Assembly: GCA_013152755.1 (NCBI GenBank)
Contig: JAADFR010000020.1
Span: 1-34,993, forward strand
DNA from: Alphaproteobacteria bacterium
GTDB taxonomy: Bacteria > Pseudomonadota > Alphaproteobacteria > Sphingomonadales > Emcibacteraceae
Reading direction: 5' to 3'
DNA: 34,993 nucleotides
Part shown: positions 1,192 to 11,293 of the stretch, piece by piece
Numbering within the stretch: position 1 is the stretch's first letter
How the letters are laid out: every line of letters starts with the position of its first letter
The notes under the pieces: generated by a model
Told to the model about the DNA's origin: nothing
What the model saw: the letters and a program-made list of their open reading frames with translations, nothing else
The model's database searches: none
Position numbers and translations under genes: made by a program

Positions 1192-2346
1192 TTACTCTTG
1201 TTTTTTTAATATTTCCAGTTGTTTCTTAACCTGTGGTTTTTGGTCGTCCGGCGCATGTTTCATGGCCTGTTCCATTGCCTTGATCGCGTCCGCCTTTTGA
1301 CCAAGGACACTATAGGCCTTGGCAAGGCGGAACCAGCCTTCAATATTCTCAGGATTTGCATCCATTTTACTTTGCAGGCGCGCCACCATGCTCTTGATCA
1401 TTTCCGCCCGGTCTGCGGGGGACATATCGGCGACAGTGGCTCGTTGTTCGGCGCTTAAGGCGGGGCCTGAGCCTCTGGAACCGGTGCTTTGAACGCCCAA
1501 TTCTTTCTCGGCCTTGCGAATCCATCTGTTGAGGGCGCCGAGCCACGGCGCACCGGGCTTGCTGTCGGTGGCCAATGATTTCCAGCTGGCCAGAGCCTGT
1601 TCTACATTGCCAGCCTGATATTCGGCCAGCGCCATATAATGACGTACACCAGGGTTTTGTGGCTGAATTTTCCGAGCGCGGTTCAGGACAAGCAGGGCGG
1701 CAGGACCGACCCGGCCATCACTGAGGATAATCAGGCTTTCAGCATAAACCACCGCCGCATCAATGCTGTTCGGGTCCAGCTCATGCCAGCGTTGAAAGGC
1801 TTTCGCCGCTTCGGGGCGGTCATGAAGATCGGTTTCAAGCTGGCCCAATGTGCGCCATGCCTTTATATCGTCCGGTTTTTGAGCCAGATAGGTTTTCAGG
1901 ATGGCCACCTCGCTGATCATTTCCGGGGATTTGGCATCTTCCTTGGTCATCTGGGCCGCAGAGTTTTTCTGCTCATCAAGGGGAAAGTCCGGCATGCCGG
2001 GGCTGCCGATCAACAGGTAAAAACCATAGCTGCCCAAAAACACAAGGACAGTCACCACCACCAGCAACGGGCGCGCCGCCTTGGTCACGGTTGTTTCGGT
2101 TTTGTCTTCTTTGGGCGTGCTTGCCACTTTCAACAGTCGCCGTTCAATCTCAAGGCGGGCCGAGGTAACTTCTTCTGCACTGAGCTGATCGTTTTTCTGG
2201 TCGCCGTCCAGTTCTTTCAGCTGGGCTTTATAGACATTGAGGCTTTGACTTTGGTCCTGTTCCTCATCCTCGCGATAACGGAACAGGGGGACCAAGATTA
2301 TGGCAAGCGCAATCAGGAGTAAAAAAGCAGACGCTATCCAGAACAT
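1192..2346 (-). CDS. ccmI: Cytochrome c biogenesis protein CcmI (TPR chaperone)
   Basis: CcmI is the membrane-anchored chaperone that holds apocytochrome c for the CcmF/H heme ligation complex. This 384-residue protein has the expected build: an N-terminal helix (residues 2-22), a cytoplasmic loop rich in acidic and basic residues, a second helix (about 93-113), and a long periplasmic domain with TPR repeats (about 145-255, and again 333-380). The phrases KPDDIKAWRTLGQLE, NPGVRHYMALAEYQAGN and NPENIEGWFRLAKAYSVLGQ are clear TPR helices. It is the last gene of the ccmC-I operon and starts 3 bp after the ccmH stop. The C-terminal TPR domain has the usual bipartite arrangement. Confidence 0.93.
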   Translation of the reverse strand: MFWIASAFLLLIALAIILVPLFRYREDEEQDQSQSLNVYKAQLKELDGDQKNDQLSAEEVTSARLEIERRLLKVASTPKEDKTETTVTKAARPLLVVVTVLVFLGSYGFYLLIGSPGMPDFPLDEQKNSAAQMTKEDAKSPEMISEVAILKTYLAQKPDDIKAWRTLGQLETDLHDRPEAAKAFQRWHELDPNSIDAAVVYAESLIILSDGRVGPAALLVLNRARKIQPQNPGVRHYMALAEYQAGNVEQALASWKSLATDSKPGAPWLGALNRWIRKAEKELGVQSTGSRGSGPALSAEQRATVADMSPADRAEMIKSMVARLQSKMDANPENIEGWFRLAKAYSVLGQKADAIKAMEQAMKHAPDDQKPQVKKQLEILKKQE

Positions 2347-2349
2347 TTT

Positions 2350-2808
2350 TTACCCTCTATCTTCGATGATTTGTTTCAGGCGTTTTTCTTCTTCCGCGCT
2401 CAAAGGGTCAGCCTTGGCACTATTTGCTGATTGCCGGATGGTGCGGAACACCAGAAAGCCACCGATCAGGAGCAGGAAGAGAGGGCCCAACCAGAGCAAG
2501 GCGTTAGAGGCCTTGAACGGTGGTTTCAACAGAATCCAGTCGCCGTAACGGCTGGTCATAAATTCAATGATCTGTTCGTGGTTCTTGCCCATGGCCACCT
2601 GTTCGCGGACGATCGCCCGCAGGTCACCGGCCAGCTCAGCATCAGAATCAATGATCGACTGATTTTGACAGACAAGGCAGCGCAGTTCTTTCATGATATG
2701 CTGGGCGCGGGCCTCCATCACAGGATCAGGAAGCTTTTTGAGGTCAACGCCAATGGCAAAGGCATTCAGGCTCAGGCCGATGAACAGCAGGGTCAGCAGA
2801 AATCTCAT
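2350..2808 (-). CDS. ccmH: Cytochrome c maturation thiol protein CcmH (CcmH/NrfF/CycL family)
   Basis: CcmH reduces or holds the CXXCH cysteines of apocytochrome c before heme attachment. The 152-residue sequence has a signal peptide (residues 1-18, ending AFA), the diagnostic LRCLVCQNQ motif with the redox pair C44 and C47, the following DLRAIVREQV and SRYGDWILLKPPF blocks, and one transmembrane helix (about 103-123) with a short cytoplasmic tail. Length and domain order match the short CcmH form, with the TPR part encoded separately as ccmI. The ATG overlaps the ccmG stop by four bases (ATGA), which supports this start and translational coupling. Confidence 0.95.
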   Translation of the reverse strand: MRFLLTLLFIGLSLNAFAIGVDLKKLPDPVMEARAQHIMKELRCLVCQNQSIIDSDAELAGDLRAIVREQVAMGKNHEQIIEFMTSRYGDWILLKPPFKASNALLWLGPLFLLLIGGFLVFRTIRQSANSAKADPLSAEEEKRLKQIIEDRG

Positions 2809-3347
2809 GAGCCACTTTCCTCTTTAAGTTCCTTGATGATCGGCGCAATTTTTTCTGTAATTTGCGATTCATAAATCGGCCCGATATGCTGGTAACGGAT
2901 AATACCATTTTTAATGAAAAAAGTCTCTGGCGTGCCGGTGACGCCCCAGTCGATGGCAGTCCGGCCTTTCAGGTCAGTGCCAACCTTGGCATAGGGATTG
3001 CCCAGACTTTTCAGAAAGCTGATACTGTTGCGCGGCAGGTCTTTATAGGCAATGCCAAAGAGTTTCACGCCGTCCATCTTGCCCAAAATTTCAAGAGAGG
3101 GATGTTCCACACGGCAGGGGCCGCACCATGAGGCAAAGAAATTGATGATGATGATATTTTCACTGTCTTTCAAATCGGCACTGCTTAATCCAACACCGTC
3201 CCCTTTTAACGGCGGCAGGGAAAATTCCGGCACCGGCTTGTTGATCATGGCAGAGGGGACTTCCCGGGGATTCAGGGTCAAGCCAATGATGAAGACAACA
3301 AACAGCCCGGCAAAAATAAACAGCGGTAGAAATCTTTTAAACTGCAT
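2805..3347 (-). CDS. ccmG: Thiol:disulfide interchange protein CcmG/DsbE
   Basis: CcmG is the membrane-tethered periplasmic thioredoxin that passes electrons to CcmH and apocytochrome c. I place the start at 3347, giving 180 residues. The longer open frame would run far into ccmF and adds a low-complexity, Cys/Arg-rich stretch unlike the family. From this start there is an N-anchor (residues 5-24), the NKPVPEFSLP strand, the active site W74-C75-G76-P77-C78 preceded by INFFAS, the conserved GVTGTPE with cis-Pro140, and a C-terminal helix. The start overlaps the ccmF stop by 11 bp. The length is normal for DsbE/CcmG. Confidence 0.95.
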   Translation of the reverse strand: MQFKRFLPLFIFAGLFVVFIIGLTLNPREVPSAMINKPVPEFSLPPLKGDGVGLSSADLKDSENIIIINFFASWCGPCRVEHPSLEILGKMDGVKLFGIAYKDLPRNSISFLKSLGNPYAKVGTDLKGRTAIDWGVTGTPETFFIKNGIIRYQHIGPIYESQITEKIAPIIKELKEESGS

Positions 3348-5331
3348 GAGCCTGTTTCCCTTTGTTTTTCTGTGCGGTCTTTTTCCCTTCCGGTGAGCCA
3401 ATGCGGTAGCGACGATCGCTAAGGGATATAAAACCACCCAGAACCATGACCGTGGCCCCGATCCACAGCCAGACCTGCATGGGTTTGTAATATACCCGCA
3501 TGCCCCAACGGTCGGAGCCCTGCATCTCGCCGATGACAATGAACAGATCTCCGGACAATGTGGTCCGCACGGCACCCTCCGTCGTGGTCATGGGGGAGGC
3601 CACATAGGTCCGGCTTTCCGGATAGGCCATATAATGGTTGCCATTCTTGTCGGTTACGGTGATGGCCCCGCGTACCGCCGTGTAATTGGGTCCGGCAACG
3701 GCAACAACATCGTCAAGGGTCAGGGTAAATTCACCAATGGTCATGCTGTCGCCCACAGGCATGACTTTCTGTTGTTCCAGGCTCCAGTATGAGGTAGCAA
3801 CAATGCCGATCAGGCCAATGGCAAAACCCAGATGACCAAGGCTCATGCCCCAGCTGGACCGGGGTTGACGCAGCAGCCGTTCAAAACTGTTTTTAAGCGG
3901 CACCTGAAATAATTTGATCCGGTTTGCCAGTTCCTGAAGCATGGACAACAGCAACCAGACACCAAGCCCCATCCAGACCACGGGCATAATGCCGCCGCCG
4001 TAGGTGACATAAAGCACCATAAGAGCCGCCAGAAGGGATAGCAGGGTGACCATCTTTAACTTGCCAATCACCGCCTTGAGGCGCGCGCGCTTCCATTGCA
4101 GATGAACGCCGAACCCCATGGTGATCACCAGTGGAATCATCAGCAAGCCGAAAACCAGATTAAAGAAGGGCGCGCCCACCGACGACTTGATGCCCAAAAT
4201 GGCATCGCTGAGCAGGGGATGCAGGGTGCCATAAAGCACCACCGCTGCCGCCACCGACAAAAACAGGTTATTGATCACAAGGCCGCTTTCCCGGCTGGCC
4301 GGGGCAAAGAGCCCGCCGGCCTGCAACCGGTCAGAGCGCAGGGCAAACAGCAGGAAACTACCGCCAATGACCAGCGCCAGGAACATCAGGATAAACAAGC
4401 CCCGCTCCGGGTCCGTGGCAAAGGCATGAACCGAAGTGAGAACACCAGACCGAACAATGAATGTGCCGAGCAGACTAAAGGAAAAGGCAATGATCGCTAG
4501 CAAGATTGTCCAGCTTTTCAGGGTATCGCGTTTTTCCACCACGATCGCCGAATGAAGCAGGGCCGTGGCCACCAGCCAGGGCATGAAGGAGGCATTTTCA
4601 ACCGGATCCCAGGCCCACCAGCCGCCCCAGCCCAGCTCGTAATAGGCCCACCATGACCCCAGCACGATACCGATGGTCAGGAATACCCACGCCAGCAATG
4701 TCCATGGCCGGACCCATCTGGCCCATGCCGGGTCAACCTTTCCCTCAATCAGGGCGGCAATGGCAAAGGAAAAGGCCACCGACAATCCCACATATCCCAG
4801 ATAGAGAAACGGCGGATGAAAGGCCAGCCCCGGGTCTTGCAACAGGGGATTCAGGCCGTTGCCATCAAAGGGGACATTGGGCAAGCGGTCAAAAGGGTTG
4901 GAGGTGATCAGCATAAACAGGAAAAACCCGATGCCGACCAAGGCCTGTATGGACAGAACCCGGGCCTGCAGGCTTTTGGGCAGATTGCGCCCGAAATGGG
5001 CCACCATGGCCCCAAAGAGCGCGAGGAACATCACCCATAACAGAAGCGATCCTTCATGGTTGCCCCAGACTCCGGAAATTTTATAAATCAGTGGTTTTAA
5101 GGAATGGCTGTTATGGGCGACAACGGCCACGGAAAAATCAGATTGCAGATAACTATAGGTCAGGGCCAGAAAGGCGCCCACGGTAAAGATGAATTGACCA
5201 TAAGCGGCGGGGGGTCCCAGTGCCATCATCCGGCCATCACGGCGGGCAGCACCGATCATGGGGAAAAGCGCCTGTATGACGGCCATGCCCAGTGCCAGAA
5301 CCAGAAAAAAATGACCTAATTCAGCGATCAT
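3337..5331 (-). CDS. ccmF: Heme lyase subunit CcmF
   Basis: CcmF takes heme from holo-CcmE and, with CcmH/I, ligates it to apocytochrome c. The 664-residue protein has about 14-15 hydrophobic helices and the WWD signature WGGWWAWDPVENASF (residues 235-249). Histidines expected to ligate heme are visible in FHPPFLYLGY (H172) and LLHSA (H260). A NHEGS motif (residues 91-95) and a periplasmic domain near 515-615 are also in family positions. The length is typical. The start shares ATGA with the end of ccmE, and the end overlaps ccmG. Nothing suggests loss of function. Confidence 0.97.
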   Translation of the reverse strand: MIAELGHFFLVLALGMAVIQALFPMIGAARRDGRMMALGPPAAYGQFIFTVGAFLALTYSYLQSDFSVAVVAHNSHSLKPLIYKISGVWGNHEGSLLLWVMFLALFGAMVAHFGRNLPKSLQARVLSIQALVGIGFFLFMLITSNPFDRLPNVPFDGNGLNPLLQDPGLAFHPPFLYLGYVGLSVAFSFAIAALIEGKVDPAWARWVRPWTLLAWVFLTIGIVLGSWWAYYELGWGGWWAWDPVENASFMPWLVATALLHSAIVVEKRDTLKSWTILLAIIAFSFSLLGTFIVRSGVLTSVHAFATDPERGLFILMFLALVIGGSFLLFALRSDRLQAGGLFAPASRESGLVINNLFLSVAAAVVLYGTLHPLLSDAILGIKSSVGAPFFNLVFGLLMIPLVITMGFGVHLQWKRARLKAVIGKLKMVTLLSLLAALMVLYVTYGGGIMPVVWMGLGVWLLLSMLQELANRIKLFQVPLKNSFERLLRQPRSSWGMSLGHLGFAIGLIGIVATSYWSLEQQKVMPVGDSMTIGEFTLTLDDVVAVAGPNYTAVRGAITVTDKNGNHYMAYPESRTYVASPMTTTEGAVRTTLSGDLFIVIGEMQGSDRWGMRVYYKPMQVWLWIGATVMVLGGFISLSDRRYRIGSPEGKKTAQKNKGKQAHAV

Positions 5332-5825
5332 GAAGCACCTGCTTTGGTTTTGGCTGACTTGTCACGTTGCCATTCCCCGCGTTTCTTCAGGCTGTCAATG
5401 ACTTCTTTGGGCATATAATTCTCATCATGTTTGGCCAGAACTTCCGTGGCCACAAAAACCCCGGCGCTGTTCATGGACCCTTCGGCGACAACCCCCTGTC
5501 CTTCGCGGAACAGATCAGGCAGCAGTCCTTCATAGGTCACGTCAACCGTTTCATTACCGTCCGTGACGGTGAATTTATTGACCATGGCACCTTTAATCTC
5601 ATGTCTTTCAAGGCTGTCAGTGGCCACCAGACCACCAAGGCGAAAATCTTGACCGGGCTTTATGCCTTTTTCAACAATTTCCGTGGGGTCATAGAACAGC
5701 CGGATGCTGTCTTCCAATGCGCTCAGAACCAGCAGGACCGCCAGCCCCAATACAGCGATAGAGGTGAGCATGAGATACAGACGGCGTTTCTTCCGCATCC
5801 CGGCCTTTGTTGCTGGCTTTGTCAT
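5328..5825 (-). CDS. ccmE: Heme chaperone CcmE
   Basis: CcmE is the periplasmic chaperone that binds heme covalently and carries it from CcmABCD to CcmF. The 165-residue protein has a basic N-terminus and a membrane anchor (about residues 17-36), then an OB-fold domain. The heme-binding motif LAKHDENYMP contains the reactive H133 and the conserved Y137. Upstream signatures FRLGGLV and YEGLLPDLFREGQGVVAEG are typical. The last 20 residues are Lys-rich and probably flexible. The start overlaps the ccmD stop (ATGA-type), and the stop overlaps the ccmF start, so it sits in a translationally coupled chain. Confidence 0.96.
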   Translation of the reverse strand: MTKPATKAGMRKKRRLYLMLTSIAVLGLAVLLVLSALEDSIRLFYDPTEIVEKGIKPGQDFRLGGLVATDSLERHEIKGAMVNKFTVTDGNETVDVTYEGLLPDLFREGQGVVAEGSMNSAGVFVATEVLAKHDENYMPKEVIDSLKKRGEWQRDKSAKTKAGAS

Positions 5826-5989
5826 TTTTTACCCTGTTTATCTGTTAAATCCCGTATCTGGGCCTCCAGCTTGCGCAGGGTGGCCTCATCTTTCTTCTTT
5901 GTCCATAAACTTGTCACAAATAAGGCGATCAGAACCACGGCACTGGCTATGTAGCTGAACAGGAGAAAAACGTCATTTCCTTCCATCAT
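5822..5989 (-). CDS. ccmD: Heme exporter protein CcmD (small ORF)
   Basis: A 55-residue reading frame fills the gap between ccmC and ccmE. It encodes one transmembrane helix (about residues 8-29, VFLLFSYIASAVVLIALF) followed by a Lys-rich, probably coiled cytoplasmic tail (TKKKDEATLRKLEAQIRD). That is the standard CcmD architecture, and CcmD is needed to release holo-CcmE from CcmABC. The ATG at 5989 overlaps the ccmC TGA (ATGA), and its TGA overlaps the ccmE ATG. A second ATG directly follows the first, so the start could be one codon later. Position, size and coupling make the identification firm despite weak sequence conservation in this family. Confidence 0.9.
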   Translation of the reverse strand: MMEGNDVFLLFSYIASAVVLIALFVTSLWTKKKDEATLRKLEAQIRDLTDKQGKK

Positions 5990-6711
5990 CCGCGCCCCCC
6001 GCCAAGCTGAATCCTGAGCGAGCGGATACGCCGCCGCAGGATCAGGCTTTGGATTCGCCAGATTATGATGGTGAAAAAGAACATGTTAAAGGCTGCAATC
6101 ATTAAAAGCAGGGCCGCCAGCATATCACCGCCTATGGTCGGGCCATCCATGCGCATCAGGCTCGCCGGTTGATGGAGGGTATTCCACCAGTCCACGGAGA
6201 ATTTGATGATGATCACATTGACAAGGCCGACCATGGCCACAATGGCGGCAATCTTTGCGGCGCGCGCGTGGTCATCTATGGTTTGCCAGACAGCGATATA
6301 TCCTAAATAGACAAAGAACAGGATCAGCATGGAAGTCAGCCGGGCATCCCATATCCAATAGGTCCCCCACATGGGTTTGCCCCACAGGCTGCCGGTGATC
6401 AGGGCAAGGGCGGTGAAGGCCGCGCCTACGGGCCCGATGGCCCGCGCCGCCTGATCGGCAAGAGGATGTTTCCAGATAAAGCCCACGGCACTGGCCACCG
6501 CAATGGCGCCGTAACCGAATTGGGCCATATAGGCGGCTGGTACATGAACAAACATAATCCGGTACGTGCTGCCCATCTGATAATCCTCGGGCGCGACCAC
6601 AAGGGCATAATAGAGCCCCAAGGCAAACAGAAGGACCGTTATGCCCGCTATCCAGGGCAGAAACATATTACTCAACCGCATAAAGCGGGCAGGATTGGCA
6701 AACTTATGCAT
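5986..6711 (-). CDS. ccmC: Heme exporter/handling protein CcmC
   Basis: CcmC presents heme to CcmE in the CcmABCD complex. The 241-residue protein has six hydrophobic helices and the WWD signature WGTYWIWDARLTS (residues 115-127). The two expected axial histidines are in FVHVPAAY (H56) and NTLHQPASL (H180). The C-terminus is strongly basic (RRRIRSLRIQ), on the cytoplasmic side. It is the first gene of the ccmC-D-E-F-G-H-I operon. The 112 bp upstream contain a perfect FNR/FixK-type palindrome, so this promoter is probably oxygen-regulated. Confidence 0.96.
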   Translation of the reverse strand: MHKFANPARFMRLSNMFLPWIAGITVLLFALGLYYALVVAPEDYQMGSTYRIMFVHVPAAYMAQFGYGAIAVASAVGFIWKHPLADQAARAIGPVGAAFTALALITGSLWGKPMWGTYWIWDARLTSMLILFFVYLGYIAVWQTIDDHARAAKIAAIVAMVGLVNVIIIKFSVDWWNTLHQPASLMRMDGPTIGGDMLAALLLMIAAFNMFFFTIIIWRIQSLILRRRIRSLRIQLGGGRG

Positions 6712-6782
6712 AAAAATGGTCTACATCTTGTGAGCTTCTTAATCAAGTTAAATAGCTTTATTTGATTCCCGCTCGCATAAGT

Positions 6783-6796
6783 TTGATTGAGATCAA
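6783..6796 (-). promoter_or_regulatory. FNR/FixK-type binding site upstream of ccmC
   Basis: TTGATTGAGATCAA is a perfect match to the FNR/FixK/Anr consensus TTGAT-N4-ATCAA. It lies between the end of the monoheme cytochrome gene and ccmC, 71 bp before the ccmC start codon. If the site is centred near -41.5 (class II activation), the transcription start would fall about 34-36 bp nearer ccmC, leaving a short leader. The -10 region is only a weak match, so exact promoter placement is inference. Confidence 0.75.
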
Positions 6797-6823
6797 TTTG
6801 AGCCCTGTATAAAAGCTGGTTAT

Positions 6824-7231
6824 TTAATGCTTTCCAGGGGCCAGCTTAACATTGCGCCGCTCATGGGTAATATAGGCCTGCATGGCGACCATCTTGGGGT
6901 CATCAAGGGCCATTGGCTTGCCTTCAAGGGGGTTGCGGATGCACCAGTTGATCATTTCCGGCAGGGTAATGACCCGGCCTATCTGTTTCTGGAACTTCGG
7001 ATAGGTTTCCGGGTGGGTATTGGCCCCGTTGGGATGGCATTGGGCACAGACCACGCCGTTGGTGCCCAGATTTGGGTCCGTAAAGGCCGTCCGGCCAACG
7101 GCCACCACAGCCATAAATTCCTTTTGCCAGATGTCCAGATCTTCCTTGGTGAATTCATCCGCCTGCGCCGTCAGGGTACTTCCCAAGCCGAGGGCGGTAA
7201 CCAAGAACAATGTTTGAATGATGTTACGCAT
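6824..7231 (-). CDS. Periplasmic monoheme c-type cytochrome
   Basis: This 135-residue secreted protein has one heme-attachment motif, CAQCH (C62, C65, H66). I start it at 7231 because an AAGGA ribosome site lies just upstream and the protein then begins with a clear signal peptide (residues 1-24, ending TAQA). The longer frame overlaps the upstream gene. The C-terminal half has a WCIRNPLEGKPMALDD block followed by a helix MVAMQAYI, which resembles the class I cytochrome fold of the thiosulfate dehydrogenase/SoxA-like group. M107 or a nearby Met could be the distal ligand. It is the last gene of a three-gene cassette, 25 bp after the phosphoesterase stop. It is probably an electron carrier for the neighbouring peroxidase, which is inference. 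Confidence 0.85.
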   Translation of the reverse strand: MRNIIQTLFLVTALGLGSTLTAQADEFTKEDLDIWQKEFMAVVAVGRTAFTDPNLGTNGVVCAQCHPNGANTHPETYPKFQKQIGRVITLPEMINWCIRNPLEGKPMALDDPKMVAMQAYITHERRNVKLAPGKH

Positions 7232-7256
7232 AATATTTTCCTTGTGATGTCCGGGA

Positions 7257-8321
7257 CTAATAGTGGTTTTGCGGTGGTTTTGAGCGGCTGACATATTTGG
7301 TATCCAGCGGATAGCCGCGTTTGGCATCATAGCCAACGGTCCGGGGTTCATTCTCGGTCAGGCTGAATTTGACGGTGGCCTTGCCGCTGTTGATGTCAAC
7401 ATATTGCCAGCCGGTGGCGTCCCGCTCAAAGAAGGGGTCGGCCCGGTTAATGGGCACGGTCAGGTGCGGCATATGGTTTTCCGCCTGGGCATAGCTTTCC
7501 GGATAGGGCCAGGGCCAGGCCGTGGCCATCACCGAATGAAAGGTAATATTGCCGATCTGGTTATACTGGATTTGATGGACATGGCCGTAAAATACGGTGA
7601 CGCTGTCAAAGGGTTGGAGGATCGCCTGTACCAGCTCCGCATCATCGGTCCAGAAATTCCAGTTTTTAAACAGTTTTTGCAACGGCGAATGGGAAAAGAC
7701 GATAATCGGCGTGTCTTTGCTGACGCCTTTCAGGTCATTGGCCAGCCATTTTCGCTGCGCCGCCCCGACCATGAAGGGCGACCCACGGGGATCGTCCAGC
7801 CCGGCCATAACCCCCATGCGTTCGGTGCCATTGGCCCAACGCTCATGGGTCCAGTGGTCATCGGTCAGGATGCTATTGAGCACGATGATATGAACGCCCT
7901 TGTGATCAAAGCTGTAATATTGTTTTCCCACCTGAGAAGACCAATATTCGCCGAGGTCAGCATAATAGTCATGCTCCCCCATAACATAATGGGTCTTATG
8001 TTTCAGGGCCGACATTATCTCAAAACCGTGGTCCAGTTCTTCCCGGGTGCCCAGCTGGGCCAGATCACCGCCATACATGACGAAATCCGGCTTGGGCGAC
8101 ATGAGGTTGGCCTCGGCCACCGCCCGTTTCAGACCCTGATCCCAGTTGCGGACAAATTTTGTGCCTTTGATATGCTGAATATGGGAATCAGAGATATAGG
8201 CAAAGGTGAAATCCTGTGATTGGTCGGCAAAGGCGAGCCGGATATTGGTCAGGGGCAGACAGGCCCCGGCGACAAATGTACCCCCGGTTTTCAGCAGGGT
8301 TCGGCGATTGATAATGCTCAT
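7257..8321 (-). CDS. Tat-exported calcineurin-like metallophosphoesterase
   Basis: This 354-residue protein has a twin-arginine signal (NRRTLLK, R6-R7, hydrophobic stretch to about residue 31) and so should be exported folded. The dimetal phosphoesterase motifs appear in order: SDSH (D45, H47), YGGDLAQ (D86), GEHD (residues 115-118), FSHSPL (H211) and YGHVH (H247, H249). The usual GNHD is GEHD here, so a metal-ligand Asn is replaced by Glu. The catalytic His is kept. The substrate is unknown; relatives hydrolyse phosphomonoesters, cyclic nucleotides or nucleotide sugars. The gene lies 46 bp after the diheme peroxidase gene and 25 bp before the cytochrome gene, an unusual setting for a phosphoesterase. 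Confidence 0.85.
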   Translation of the reverse strand: MSIINRRTLLKTGGTFVAGACLPLTNIRLAFADQSQDFTFAYISDSHIQHIKGTKFVRNWDQGLKRAVAEANLMSPKPDFVMYGGDLAQLGTREELDHGFEIMSALKHKTHYVMGEHDYYADLGEYWSSQVGKQYYSFDHKGVHIIVLNSILTDDHWTHERWANGTERMGVMAGLDDPRGSPFMVGAAQRKWLANDLKGVSKDTPIIVFSHSPLQKLFKNWNFWTDDAELVQAILQPFDSVTVFYGHVHQIQYNQIGNITFHSVMATAWPWPYPESYAQAENHMPHLTVPINRADPFFERDATGWQYVDINSGKATVKFSLTENEPRTVGYDAKRGYPLDTKYVSRSKPPQNHY

Positions 8322-8367
8322 GGTTCTTCTCTTTCTGTCATTATTTGACGATTGATTTTCACAGAAA

Positions 8368-9465
8368 TCAGTTTAGCGGGCTGGTCAGCATCTTCAGAAA
8401 AGCCACCAGATCAGCTTTTTGCGTATCGTTCAGGCCAAGGGGCCGGATGCCGCCGCTTTGAAAGCTGTTGACCGGATCACCTGCCTTGACAAAGCCGCCG
8501 TTGTTGTAGAAATCAACTACATCTTCCAATGTCTTGATGCTGCCGTCATGCATATAGGGCGCGGTGAGGTCAACATTTCGCAGGGTCGGGGTTTTGAAGG
8601 CTCCGATATCCCGCCATTGCCCGGTGACCACGAAACGGCCCAGTTCAGCCACGGCCTTGTCGGTCAGGATGCTGACGTCCAGATCAACGCCGTCGGCCTT
8701 TTCCTGCTGCTGGCGCTTGGCCAGCGCCTGTACGCCACCGGAAATGCTGTTGAAATTCACATTAAGGTTATGAAAACGGCTGTCGGTAAACAGGGCGTGG
8801 GTCTGGGACACCGTATGGCAGGATACACAACGCCCCTGTTCCAGAAAGACATTAAAGCCCCTTACAGCGGATGGTGTCATGGCGGCCTTGTTATTGGTAA
8901 AGTAATAATGATCGAACGGGCTGTTACCGGAAATGATTGTCCGTTCAAAAGACGCAATTGCCTTGGCCACATGGTCCATGGTCAGGGCATTTTTCTTCTT
9001 AAGCCCAAAGACTTTCCGAAACATCTTCCAATAGGCCCGGTCGTCCCGCACCAACGTTAAGATGGGATCATGATTTTCCAGACCCATTTCCACAGGGTTG
9101 ATGAAGGGGCCTTTTGACTGGCCTTCCAGATCAGGCTCACGGCCATCCCAGAATTGGCTTTTCATAAAGGCGGCATTGAGTATCGTTGGTGCATTGCGGG
9201 TGCCGGTCAAGCCCTTTATGCCTTCTGATGTTTTCAGGGGGCCATCGGCAAATCCCTTGGCCGCATCATGGCAGGTGGCGCAGCTTACGTCACCGGTACT
9301 GCTGAAACGGGGATCATTGAACAGTTTTTCACCAAGGGCAATTTTTGCTTTGGATTGGGGATTATCTGCCGGAATTGGCACGGGCGGCAAGCCCAGAGGT
9401 TCGGCAAAACCCGTCTGGATACTAAAAAAAAGGACAATTGCTGTAATCGAAAATATTTTTTTCAT
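8368..9465 (-). CDS. Diheme cytochrome c peroxidase (CCP/MauG family)
   Basis: This 365-residue periplasmic enzyme belongs to the bacterial diheme peroxidase family. I use the ATG at 9465, which lies 5 bp after the strong site AAGGTGG; a GTG three codons earlier falls inside that site. A signal peptide (1-21, ending GFA) is followed by two heme motifs, SCATCH (C62, C65, H66) and RCVSCH (C213, C216, H217). W106 (QFWDGR) and E126 (NPVEMG) match conserved active-site positions. The distal residue of the electron-transfer heme appears to be Met (APYMHDGS, M305), as in true peroxidases, not the Tyr of MauG. It is probably a hydrogen peroxide reductase fed by a small cytochrome, and it heads the three-gene cassette. 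Confidence 0.9.
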   Translation of the reverse strand: MKKIFSITAIVLFFSIQTGFAEPLGLPPVPIPADNPQSKAKIALGEKLFNDPRFSSTGDVSCATCHDAAKGFADGPLKTSEGIKGLTGTRNAPTILNAAFMKSQFWDGREPDLEGQSKGPFINPVEMGLENHDPILTLVRDDRAYWKMFRKVFGLKKKNALTMDHVAKAIASFERTIISGNSPFDHYYFTNNKAAMTPSAVRGFNVFLEQGRCVSCHTVSQTHALFTDSRFHNLNVNFNSISGGVQALAKRQQQEKADGVDLDVSILTDKAVAELGRFVVTGQWRDIGAFKTPTLRNVDLTAPYMHDGSIKTLEDVVDFYNNGGFVKAGDPVNSFQSGGIRPLGLNDTQKADLVAFLKMLTSPLN

Positions 9466-9661
9466 CGTGACCACCTTAAGTAATTTTTATAAAAATATCC
9501 TACACTTGAATCATAGTTTAGACAAGTTCTAAAATAAAAAAATATATAAATTACATTGTTGGTCTTATTTTTAGGCGTCTTGGTCGCATAGATATTGCTA
9601 TTCGACGGTTAGAAGTATCCTATGAATATATGTGCCCGTCAACAGATTCCGGAATTAGAAT

Positions 9662-9964
9662 ATGAAAAGATTTAAACGCCCCATAAAGCTTGCCACAGGA
9701 TGGCTGTTTGTGCTGATCGGTTTGATCACGGCGCCATTACCCCTGCCGCTTGGTCAGTTGCTGGCTTTGGTTGGTCTTAGCCTGCTGGTTTCGGAAAGCT
9801 ATATGATTTGTATGTTCACCCGTAAGCTGCGCCGGAAATATACGTTGCTCAACAAATTGATGGACCGCATCAAGCCCTTTGTTCCCGGTTTTCTGAAATC
9901 AACCATCGAGGATACGGATCCCCGGCATCTAAATCCGGTTGCGCTTATTCCAGACCGGACCTGA
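9662..9964 (+). CDS. Small PGPGW-like transmembrane protein
   Basis: This 100-residue protein has a hydrophobic hairpin, GWLFVLIGLITAPLPLP then GQLLALVGLSLLVSES, which resembles the small PGPGW transmembrane family, although the PGPG core reads PLPL here. A basic helix follows (FTRKLRRKY) and then a hydrophilic tail. Function is unknown. It is the only plus-strand gene between the two ccm blocks, and its last 20 bp overlap the 3' end of ccmB on the other strand. The ribosome site is weak. It is divergent from the diheme peroxidase gene across about 195 bp of AT-rich DNA, where promoters for both presumably lie. Confidence 0.65.
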   Translation: MKRFKRPIKLATGWLFVLIGLITAPLPLPLGQLLALVGLSLLVSESYMICMFTRKLRRKYTLLNKLMDRIKPFVPGFLKSTIEDTDPRHLNPVALIPDRT

Positions 9965-10613
9965 TGGCTGCGGCCGCCGCCCAGGGGGTGATGGCCGCAC
10001 TGAACAGGCTGAAACTGATCAGCAGCATCAGATGCTCCGTCGCCGGATAGCCGTCTATGGTCGCCTTGACCGCCAGAACCCCGAAAATCAACACCGGAAT
10101 ATAGAGCGGTAATATGAGCAGGGACAGCAACACCCCGCCCCGGCGCAGGGTGACGGTGAGGGATGCCCCGATTCCACCAATAAAGCTGAGCGCCGGCGTA
10201 CCCAGCAACATGGTCAGAATTAGCGGGAAATAACCCTGCTCCGGTAAATTCATCAGGATGCCCAGAATGGGGGTGATGATGATTAGCGGCAGGGAGGTGG
10301 TGATCCAGTGAGCGATGCATTTGGCCAGCACCACAAGTTCCAGCGGAACCGGGCTTAAAATAAACTGGTCCAGCGAGCCATCCTCATAATCGGACTGAAA
10401 TATACTGTCCAGCGACAGGAGGCAGGACAATAGGGCCGCCACCCAGATCACGCCCACGGACATTCGTTGCAGGATATTTTGCTCCGGCCCGATGGCAAAG
10501 GGGAACATGATGACCACCATGACAAAAAACCCCATGACCATAATGGTGGTGGACCCGCGCCGCAGGGACAGGCGAAGATCACGGGCAATGATGGTAAGGA
10601 TGAGGGAGATCAT
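9945..10613 (-). CDS. ccmB: Heme exporter permease CcmB
   Basis: CcmB is the membrane subunit of the CcmAB ABC transporter, which powers release of holo-CcmE. The 222-residue protein has six hydrophobic helices, a basic N-terminus (RDLRLSLRRGS), and the family motif DYEDGSLDQFILSP (about residues 75-88) between helices 2 and 3. The length matches the family's usual 220 residues. The start overlaps the ccmA stop by four bases (ATGA). Its 3' end overlaps a convergent small gene by 20 bp. ccmC is not next to it; a cytochrome/phosphoesterase cassette and a gene on the other strand come between. Confidence 0.95.
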   Translation of the reverse strand: MISLILTIIARDLRLSLRRGSTTIMVMGFFVMVVIMFPFAIGPEQNILQRMSVGVIWVAALLSCLLSLDSIFQSDYEDGSLDQFILSPVPLELVVLAKCIAHWITTSLPLIIITPILGILMNLPEQGYFPLILTMLLGTPALSFIGGIGASLTVTLRRGGVLLSLLILPLYIPVLIFGVLAVKATIDGYPATEHLMLLISFSLFSAAITPWAAAAAIRSGLE

Positions 10614-11293
10614 AGCAGGCTTTCCTCAAGTATATCCGGCATCTGATAGGCAAAGTCGGCCATATTCAGGACCGAGCTTTTATCCGCCTCAAGACCAAGT
10701 TCGATATGGGTGGCCGCCAGAATGCGTCCGCCCCGCCTTAAATGATCATTCATCAACCCCGATAAAAGCGCAACACCATCGCTGTCCAGCCCGACGGTTG
10801 GTTCGTCAAGGAGCCATATATTGCCCGGATGACACAGGATGCGGGTCAGGGCGGCGCGGCGGGCCTGACCGGAGGACAGGTAGGACACGGGCAGGTCAAG
10901 ACAATGATCAATACCGATTTTTACGGCCTGTTCCCGGATGTCGCCGTCATGGCGTTCCAGTCTGGCCCAGAAGGTGAGATTCTCCGCCACGGTCAATTCC
11001 GGCTTCATACCGTTTTTATGGGCCAGATAGCAGACATTCTGACTGATCCAGTCTTTATCGCCGAGGATATTCTGACCCTGAATGGAAATTTCACCGCTGA
11101 TGGCGGGCAACAGACCGGCAATGATTTTCATCAGGCTGGATTTGCCCGACCCGTTGGCCCCCAGAAGGATTAGCGCCCGGCCCGGCGGCAAATCAAAGGC
11201 CAGATTTGAGAAAACCGGCCTGTCCCCCCGGATGCAGGCAAGGTTTTGCCCGCTTAGATGATCACTTGACATATTGCTCACTGAAAAACCCAT
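10610..11293 (-). CDS. ccmA: Heme exporter ATP-binding protein CcmA
   Basis: CcmA is the ATPase of the CcmAB complex. The 227-residue protein carries Walker A GANGSGKS (residues 45-52), the signature LSSGQ (139-143), Walker B IWLLDE (159-164) and a switch histidine in ATHIE. The N-terminal SGQNLACIRGDRPVFSNL is the usual CcmA opening. The start is uncertain: the ATG at 11293 and an in-frame ATG at 11272 both have weak ribosome sites, and the shorter form is 220 residues. The gene overlaps ccmB by four bases, so CcmA and CcmB are coupled. Confidence 0.94.
   Translation of the reverse strand: MGFSVSNMSSDHLSGQNLACIRGDRPVFSNLAFDLPPGRALILLGANGSGKSSLMKIIAGLLPAISGEISIQGQNILGDKDWISQNVCYLAHKNGMKPELTVAENLTFWARLERHDGDIREQAVKIGIDHCLDLPVSYLSSGQARRAALTRILCHPGNIWLLDEPTVGLDSDGVALLSGLMNDHLRRGGRILAATHIELGLEADKSSVLNMADFAYQMPDILEESLL

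Follow-up and report, generated by a model that had tools for sequence, protein, structure and literature searches.

An MPE-cytochrome pair with an optional peroxidase

We analyzed a window of 34,993 nucleotides (the whole stretch from position 1 to position 34,993 of contig JAADFR010000020.1, assembly GCA_013152755.1, from an alphaproteobacterium of the Emcibacteraceae), in which three minus-strand genes at 6824-9465 form a cassette. They code for a predicted MauG/MbnH-type dihaem enzyme (P0003), a metallophosphoesterase (MPE) exported by twin-arginine translocation (Tat) (P0002), and a SoxA/TsdA-type monohaem cytochrome (P0001). Across genomes, the constant core of this system is the MPE with its cytochrome, and the peroxidase is an optional arm. 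Since the MPE and an electron carrier are constant and the peroxidase is not, we tentatively favour, at somewhat less than even probability, a reading in which the MPE would be redox coupled, its electron partners could be exchanged, and an arm driven by peroxide would be optional.

The genes are separated by 46 bp (8322-8367, between P0003 and P0002) and 25 bp (7232-7256, between P0002 and P0001), in agreement with the first-pass annotation, which had reported three same-strand genes with gaps of these sizes. We looked for the three proteins in 60 related genomes, including that of the window. The MPE was present in four of them. P0003 relatives were detected in 16, with 66-100% identity only in the same four genomes and at most 43% in the others, and the cytochrome was found in those four genomes, plus one weak match elsewhere. 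A motif scan of the genome collection with the MPE alone (HYVMGEH and QK[LI]FKNW), which favours close relatives and is blind to neighbouring genes, yielded 71 loci. The first-pass annotation had set rarity of the three genes together as the refuting condition. In fact the trio was found in 69 of these loci, with all three genes in one order, on one strand and with mostly short gaps; the other two (L102 and L104) are truncated by a contig end within the MPE gene. Within the 69, the peroxidase gene is split or cut by a contig edge in some (for example L038, L040, L052, L063 and L096). In L038, a metagenome bin, it occupies two reading frames (1527-2635), by sequencing error or decay.

The 71 loci are labelled as Alpha- and Gammaproteobacteria, Desulfobulbaceae, other deltaproteobacterial bins, Bdellovibrionales, Myxococcaceae, Acidobacteria and a spirochaete bin. 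Methanotrophs and sulfur oxidizers are frequent among them, and most loci come from metagenome bins, where a contig may have been misplaced; the named strains are alpha- and gammaproteobacteria. Over 69 sequences, the pairwise distances within each protein family track those of the other two (Mantel r of 0.79, 0.67 and 0.70, with none of 999 permutations as high), as shared ancestry alone would also produce.

We then considered the gammaproteobacteria. The MPE occurs in 36 of 369 genomes, a sample centred on a cassette carrier and hence with at least one carrier built in; 30 loci were examined and 6 were not fetched, and at least four of the 30 repeat loci of the 71 (L169, L173, L176 and L180). 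A SoxA-type cytochrome adjoins the MPE in 29 of the 30 loci, the exception (L187) being a contig that ends about 190 nt past the MPE gene. With the trio in 69 of 71 loci and the cytochrome beside the MPE in 29 of 30, a chance neighbourhood is rejected. A peroxidase with Tyr at the haem-ligand position is found in 18 of the 30 loci, one with Met in a single locus (L194), and none in 11, where 'none' refers to an upstream flank of up to 1.5 kb and the rest of the genomes was not searched for a MauG-type enzyme. Thus, 18 of the 19 peroxidases are of the Tyr type. The first-pass annotation had treated the phosphoesterase as the odd gene between a peroxidase and its donor. This view is reversed by the loci: the MPE-cytochrome pair is constant and the peroxidase is the dispensable member, so that a canonical peroxidase-donor pair is rejected as the defining idea of the cassette. 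In a FastTree phylogeny of 122 MPEs with the distant members as root, in which some nodes are weakly supported (0.24 and 0.50), the peroxidase-bearing form falls into two separate groups and so does the pair-only form.

The partner itself is exchanged in other lineages. In five alphaproteobacterial loci, four on rhizobial or Phyllobacterium plasmids and one in a genome, a cupredoxin-like gene takes the position of the peroxidase gene, upstream of the MPE-cytochrome pair. Its product carries the motif HN...CDAHGWM, identified by inspection, and Pfam detects only its carboxypeptidase-regulatory part. Thiocapsa sp. KS1 has three separate loci, one with the full trio (L087), one with the cupredoxin-like version (L199), and a third (L200) with no match to a peroxidase or cupredoxin-like gene. 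Ten distant MPEs, 31-37% identical, have no cytochrome, and eight of them adjoin a plastocyanin/amicyanin-type cupredoxin. In one of the eight, on a plasmid of Gemmatirosa kalamazoonensis (L127, 2641-4101), a single open reading frame (ORF) fuses a Tat-exported MPE with a GEHD motif to a blue-copper domain. Extracytoplasmic function (ECF)-type sigma factor genes adjoin several distant MPEs, as partly annotated and partly seen by inspection. The plasmid survey returned 58 records with a match, of which 13 were examined, and a search of 385 genomes of the window's class with a rhizobial MPE matched the window alone.

Two further observations concern these variants. The plasmid versions L107 and L111 (rhizobial/Phyllobacterium) lie near genes for SCO and a cbb3-type oxidase, with soxYZ also present in Sinorhizobium meliloti. 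A peroxidase-MPE fusion in one ORF was found in a metagenome bin (L061, 4858-7023); as neither the end of the peroxidase nor the MPE's twin arginine is present and misassembly could have produced it, this fusion was discarded as evidence.

A substituted metal-ligand motif in the MPE

P0002 (354 aa, 7257-8321) matches Pfam Metallophos at 3.1e-11 and has Arg-Arg at residues 6-7, in line with the Tat-secreted metallophosphoesterase of the first-pass annotation. The twin arginine is present in 72 of 73 MPE sequences, the fused L061 being the sole exception. The protein has the motif pattern of calcineurin-like phosphoesterases (D-x-H, GD, GNH, H, GHxH) with one change, GEHD for GNHD (residues 115-118, 7968-7979), in which Glu116 replaces the usual Asn. 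In GpdQ, Rv0805 and purple acid phosphatases this Asn is a metal ligand. Glu116 and Trp221 are present in all 122 aligned MPEs, of all classes (119 distinct sequences, as overlap between two genome samples left three identical pairs), and Asp45, His47, Asp86, His117, His211, His247 and His249 are likewise kept, barring gaps or ambiguous letters. All 30 gammaproteobacterial MPEs have GEHD. As a yardstick, we inspected PF00149 proteins of relatives at 29 loci: two were cassette MPEs with GEHD, nine without a usable motif were dropped, and the 18 resolvable proteins outside the subfamily all have GNHD or GNHE.

A second signature follows the cytochrome. Positions 269 and 271 are both Trp in all 110 MPEs that are readable there and belong to classes with the cytochrome, and in none of the ten distant MPEs without cytochrome, which suggests that these Trp may form a cytochrome docking or electron-entry site. 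The orphan MPE L105, described below, has Leu at position 271. In a fold search, the predicted structure of P0002 was nearest Rv0805, GpdQ and purple acid phosphatase.

Taken together, these features raise a broader proposal, which we find doubtful on present evidence: this whole subfamily of calcineurin-fold MPEs might consist of redox metalloenzymes, in which Glu for Asn would give a carboxylate-rich site like that of oxidative di-iron proteins, the dedicated partner would be a Cys-ligated SoxA-type cytochrome or a blue-copper protein (once fused), and the MauG-type enzyme of the window would couple the reaction to hydrogen peroxide (H2O2).

A SoxA/TsdA-type cytochrome without the thiosulfate arginine

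P0001 (135 aa, 6824-7231) has a signal peptide by inspection and matches Pfam SoxA-TsdA_cyt-c at 2.8e-13, although it is below the cut-off of the NCBIfam SoxA model (47.5 versus 110). Its single CxxCH motif is CAQCH (residues 62-66, 7034-7048), and its predicted structure, with a mean predicted local distance difference test score (pLDDT) of 87, is nearest TsdA and SoxA. Cys62, Cys65, His66 and Cys97 are conserved in 71 of 71 family sequences. In alignments, Cys97 (codon 6941-6943) matches chain position 222 of SoxA (1h31) as well as the active-site Cys of TsdA, and would be the equivalent of their haem-ligating Cys. The first-pass annotation had called this protein a small cytochrome c; it is indeed monohaem, but its domain, that of a predicted single-domain SoxA/TsdA-type cytochrome, is not that of an ordinary electron donor.

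These features bring up sulfur oxidation, in a reduced Sox/Tsd-like pathway where the SoxA-type cytochrome would bind a thiosulfate-like compound and the MPE would act on the product by hydrolysis, like SoxB. SoxB shares a superfamily with the MPE and appears in the MPE's fold search (on a modest model, at rank 28 with an E value of about 1e-3, behind Rv0805, GpdQ, purple acid phosphatase and others). Excerpts of PMC7608252 describe a TsdA-SoxB pathway in Erythrobacter flavus, one rhizobial locus lies near soxYZ, and several hosts carry sulfur-oxidizer names. However, an Arg invariant in SoxA and TsdA (Arg119 of TsdA, four residues before the Cys, according to the available part of PMC4423706) is replaced by Met93 in 70 of 71 cytochromes and by Ile in one, the Arg109 position is Gln83 in 71 of 71, and the Ser127 position is Pro101 in 70 of 71. 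The cassette contains no SoxX or SoxYZ gene, and methanotrophs and Bdellovibrionales bins are among its hosts. Since the cytochrome lacks the invariant Arg, we lowered the thiosulfate-enzyme reading and consider it very unlikely.

A MauG/MbnH-type dihaem enzyme

P0003 (365 aa, 8368-9465) matches Pfam CCP_MauG at 1.1e-54 and has a hydrophobic N-terminal signal by inspection. Its start is the ATG at the 9465 end; an alternative GTG start at 9474 is likewise open. Canonical cytochrome c peroxidases use a Met as haem ligand at a position where P0003 has Tyr320 (codon 8506-8508; equivalent to MauG Tyr294 by spacing), which aligns with the Met of the canonical peroxidase 4aal and with a Tyr of 6e1c. 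This residue is Tyr in 71 of 71 aligned P0003-family sequences, an alignment from which haem ligation is predicted. Because Tyr320 replaces the canonical Met, we assign P0003 to the predicted MauG/MbnH-type dihaem enzymes and not to the canonical peroxidases; the 'diheme cytochrome c peroxidase' of the first-pass annotation therefore holds as to the CCP_MauG dihaem family but not as to the canonical type. The best solved match of the family profile is 6e1c (230.3 bits), listed as 'Di-heme enzyme', which we take to be MbnH. The best NCBIfam model is likewise 'MbnH family di-heme enzyme' (TIGR04039; 259.4 bits, below the cut-off of 362.85), and the score with TTQ_mauG is also below its cut-off (189.3 versus 443.85 bits). 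The distal-pocket residues Gln116, Pro120 and Glu126 (MauG Q103, P107 and E113) are present with MauG spacing in 69 of 69 readable sequences, and Trp106 (MauG W93, the bridging Trp) in 66 of 68; the roles of these residues are taken from the available part of PMC6405878.

Such an enzyme could act in maturation. It would use H2O2 to oxidatively modify an aromatic residue of the MPE or the cytochrome, as MauG does with methylamine dehydrogenase, and the modified protein would be the working enzyme. The conserved Tyr, distal pocket and bridging Trp, as well as the match to 6e1c, are consistent with this possibility. The BthA-phosA system, a MauG-like/phosphatase pair with proposed partner oxidation (excerpts of PMC6405878), points the same way, and cytochrome Trp35 tracks the architecture, being Trp in 99% of peroxidase-type sequences, including L106, and Tyr or Phe in all five cupredoxin-type ones. 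Against it, the pair has no neighbouring MauG-type enzyme in 12 of the 30 gammaproteobacterial loci, counting the one with a Met-type peroxidase, and no MPE Trp is both kept in every peroxidase-bearing sequence and cleanly missing elsewhere: Trp60 and Trp162 are missing in the peroxidase-bearing L106, and Trp157, although L106 retains it, aligns ambiguously with the other architectures. In the window, ccm genes flank the cassette, and elsewhere, with neighbours partly annotated, no additional gene but that for an OxyR-like protein recurs in more than 10 loci. Because the pair also occurs where no peroxidase adjoins it and no Trp with such a distribution was found, modification of the MPE by the peroxidase, as raised in the first-pass annotation, is not favoured, and we judge maturation in general to be unlikely.

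OxyR-like regulators and peroxide

Of the 61 loci whose upstream sequence extends for 900 nt or more, 18 carry a divergent OxyR-like gene on the upstream side of the peroxidase gene. All 18 proteins have GHC and the second redox Cys, and OxyR is the best of three NCBIfam models for them (235.7-275.3 bits, below the cut-off of 329). Seventeen of these loci are labelled gammaproteobacterial. As the OxyR sequences of L056 and L084 are clearly different, the association probably has more than one origin. The next largest cluster of neighbours comprises 10 loci (a group of ATP-binding cassette (ABC) ATPases including ccmA). In L193, the OxyR-like start of a LysR gene (750-1148, 133 aa, same strand) lies upstream of a pair without peroxidase.

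The regulator would suit ordinary, co-regulated peroxide defence, in which the MauG-type enzyme and the cytochrome would remove periplasmic H2O2 and hydrolysis by the MPE would be unrelated, for instance the recycling of a phosphate ester after damage. The adjacent cytochrome could be the electron donor that a dihaem peroxidase requires; in L194, a canonical Met-type peroxidase (2-1114) lies upstream of the pair. Yet the peroxidase is the least constant member and the pair persists without it, and the MPE-cupredoxin fusion is left unexplained. A Cys-ligated SoxA-type haem would also be an odd donor; the haems of TsdA are several hundred mV below the thiosulfate/tetrathionate couple, according to the available part of PMC9562282. 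We thus see little likelihood that peroxide defence accounts for the cassette.

Genomic setting and mobility

In the window, the cassette splits a cytochrome c maturation (ccm) operon (1192-11293) between ccmB and ccmC. On one side are ccmAB (CcmB, Pfam 2.8e-78, with an ABC-transporter gene before it), and on the other a cytochrome c assembly gene at the ccmC position, followed by ccmE, ccmF, a redoxin gene, ccmH and a gene for a CcmH/CycH-type tetratricopeptide repeat protein. The trio is also inside the ccm locus in another genus of the family (G304), with the same insertion position in L009. The window MPE is 72% identical to that of a Desulfobulbaceae bin (L036) and 69-71% identical to that of L009, from the other genus of the same family. 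That L036 is as close as L009 points to transfer between lineages, and such taxonomic discordance suggests that the module may be mobile. Viral contigs gave 44 matching stretches in one motif scan, and no relative is encoded in any of them; a phage collection was not searched. A scan of 6600-9800 gave six promoter-like sites versus 3.7 in shuffled sequences and one terminator-like site versus 4.3.

Between ccmB and the cassette, and divergent from the latter, lies a small plus-strand gene for a PGPGW-type membrane protein (9662-9964). Within the set of loci that were clustered, its other occurrences are confined to the family's three further cassette genomes (L009, L010/L035 and L011/L034).

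Proposed function

In the reading that we tentatively favour, the three genes would make up a horizontally mobile periplasmic redox module. At its core would be a Tat-exported calcineurin-fold MPE with a carboxylate-substituted dinuclear metal site, whose residues, assigned by motif, would be Asp45, His47, Asp86, Glu116, His211, His247 and His249. The SoxA/TsdA-type cytochrome, probably Cys/His ligated, would be its one-electron partner. The MauG/MbnH-type enzyme, beside an OxyR-like regulator in some lineages, would represent an accessory arm with H2O2 as oxidant, which through its bis-haem centre would take electrons from the cytochrome/MPE pair or set the oxidation state of the MPE metals. 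Where this arm is absent, a cupredoxin or the respiratory chain would substitute. The MPE would thus perform redox chemistry or be redox switched, rather than simply hydrolyse a phosphate ester; electrons may pass to or from it, and the direction of flow and the metals are likewise proposed from the partners and motifs.

Several points weigh against the redox-coupled reading. Partner conservation is no proof of electron transfer into the MPE, which with its full metal-ligand pattern could be an ordinary phosphodiesterase that its neighbours protect or regulate. The MPE model is weak (mean pLDDT of 64, and below 50 for residues 266-305, which include Trp269 and Trp271), so it gives no usable distance between the Trp patch and the metals. 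Through the motifs of the scan, Glu116 and Trp221 were partly selected for among the 71 loci; the profile-based and tblastn-based MPE sets are free of this selection. The module is rare in the window's class, with the MPE family in 3 of 289 genomes, and in 4 of 398 in a sample of the phylum. Stop codons are present in two of the 30 MPE matches from gammaproteobacteria (L192 and L196), two of the ten distant MPEs showed no cupredoxin, and a close MPE on a Methylocystis bryophila plasmid (L105, 7935-9011) stands alone near transposase genes. Finally, no OxyR gene adjoins the cassette in the window, and its genome has no strong match (best 105 bits, cut-off 329). The coupling of peroxide or redox state to the phosphoesterase, as the first-pass annotation proposed, is supported in part: the genes are a real unit, the MPE is linked to redox proteins and the OxyR-like genes in 18 of 61 loci fit a link to peroxide, but the window cassette has no such gene beside it.

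Metallophosphoesterases are annotated everywhere as hydrolases. If the redox-coupled reading is true, some of these annotations would hide redox or redox-switched enzymes, and MauG/MbnH-type enzymes would gain a concrete partner system, accessible in cultured bacteria such as Methylotuvimicrobium buryatense (strain 5G, locus L059).

Comparison with known systems

The nearest folds to the MPE, those of GpdQ, Rv0805 and purple acid phosphatases, share its motif pattern and differ in having the Asn of GNHD and in lacking the recurrent redox partners. P0001 resembles SoxA and TsdA in its fold, its CxxCH and its haem-ligand Cys, but unlike them it is a single-domain monohaem protein with Met in place of the thiosulfate Arg and a score below the SoxA cut-off. 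As in MbnH/MbnP and MauG, the dihaem enzyme has a predicted Tyr sixth ligand and a conserved distal pocket; unlike MbnH and MauG, it is below both curated NCBIfam cut-offs and it is partnered with an MPE and a cytochrome. In the MbnH/MbnP system, a Trp of MbnP is turned into kynurenine by MbnH. The entries 6nx0 and 6v59, which are presumably BthA, are distant from the P0003 family (profile scores of 84.6 and 80.1 bits, versus 230.3 for 6e1c).

The first-pass annotation knew of no described system with this trio. Among the open-access papers listed, none describes the trio or an MPE-cytochrome or MPE-cupredoxin pairing, subscription journals not being covered; a MauG-like enzyme with a putative phosphatase, however, has a precedent in BthA-phosA of Burkholderia. 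In the available part of PMC6405878, BthA is a MauG-like dihaem enzyme with a Tyr-ligated haem, always encoded beside a putative purple acid phosphatase. That phosphatase and the cassette MPE belong to a common structural superfamily, and we liken them at this level only. According to the same excerpts, the bridging Trp that the P0003 family keeps is replaced by Ser in BthA, and no SoxA-type cytochrome is mentioned in them, unlike in the cassette. BthA-phosA is the nearest published pairing that we found.

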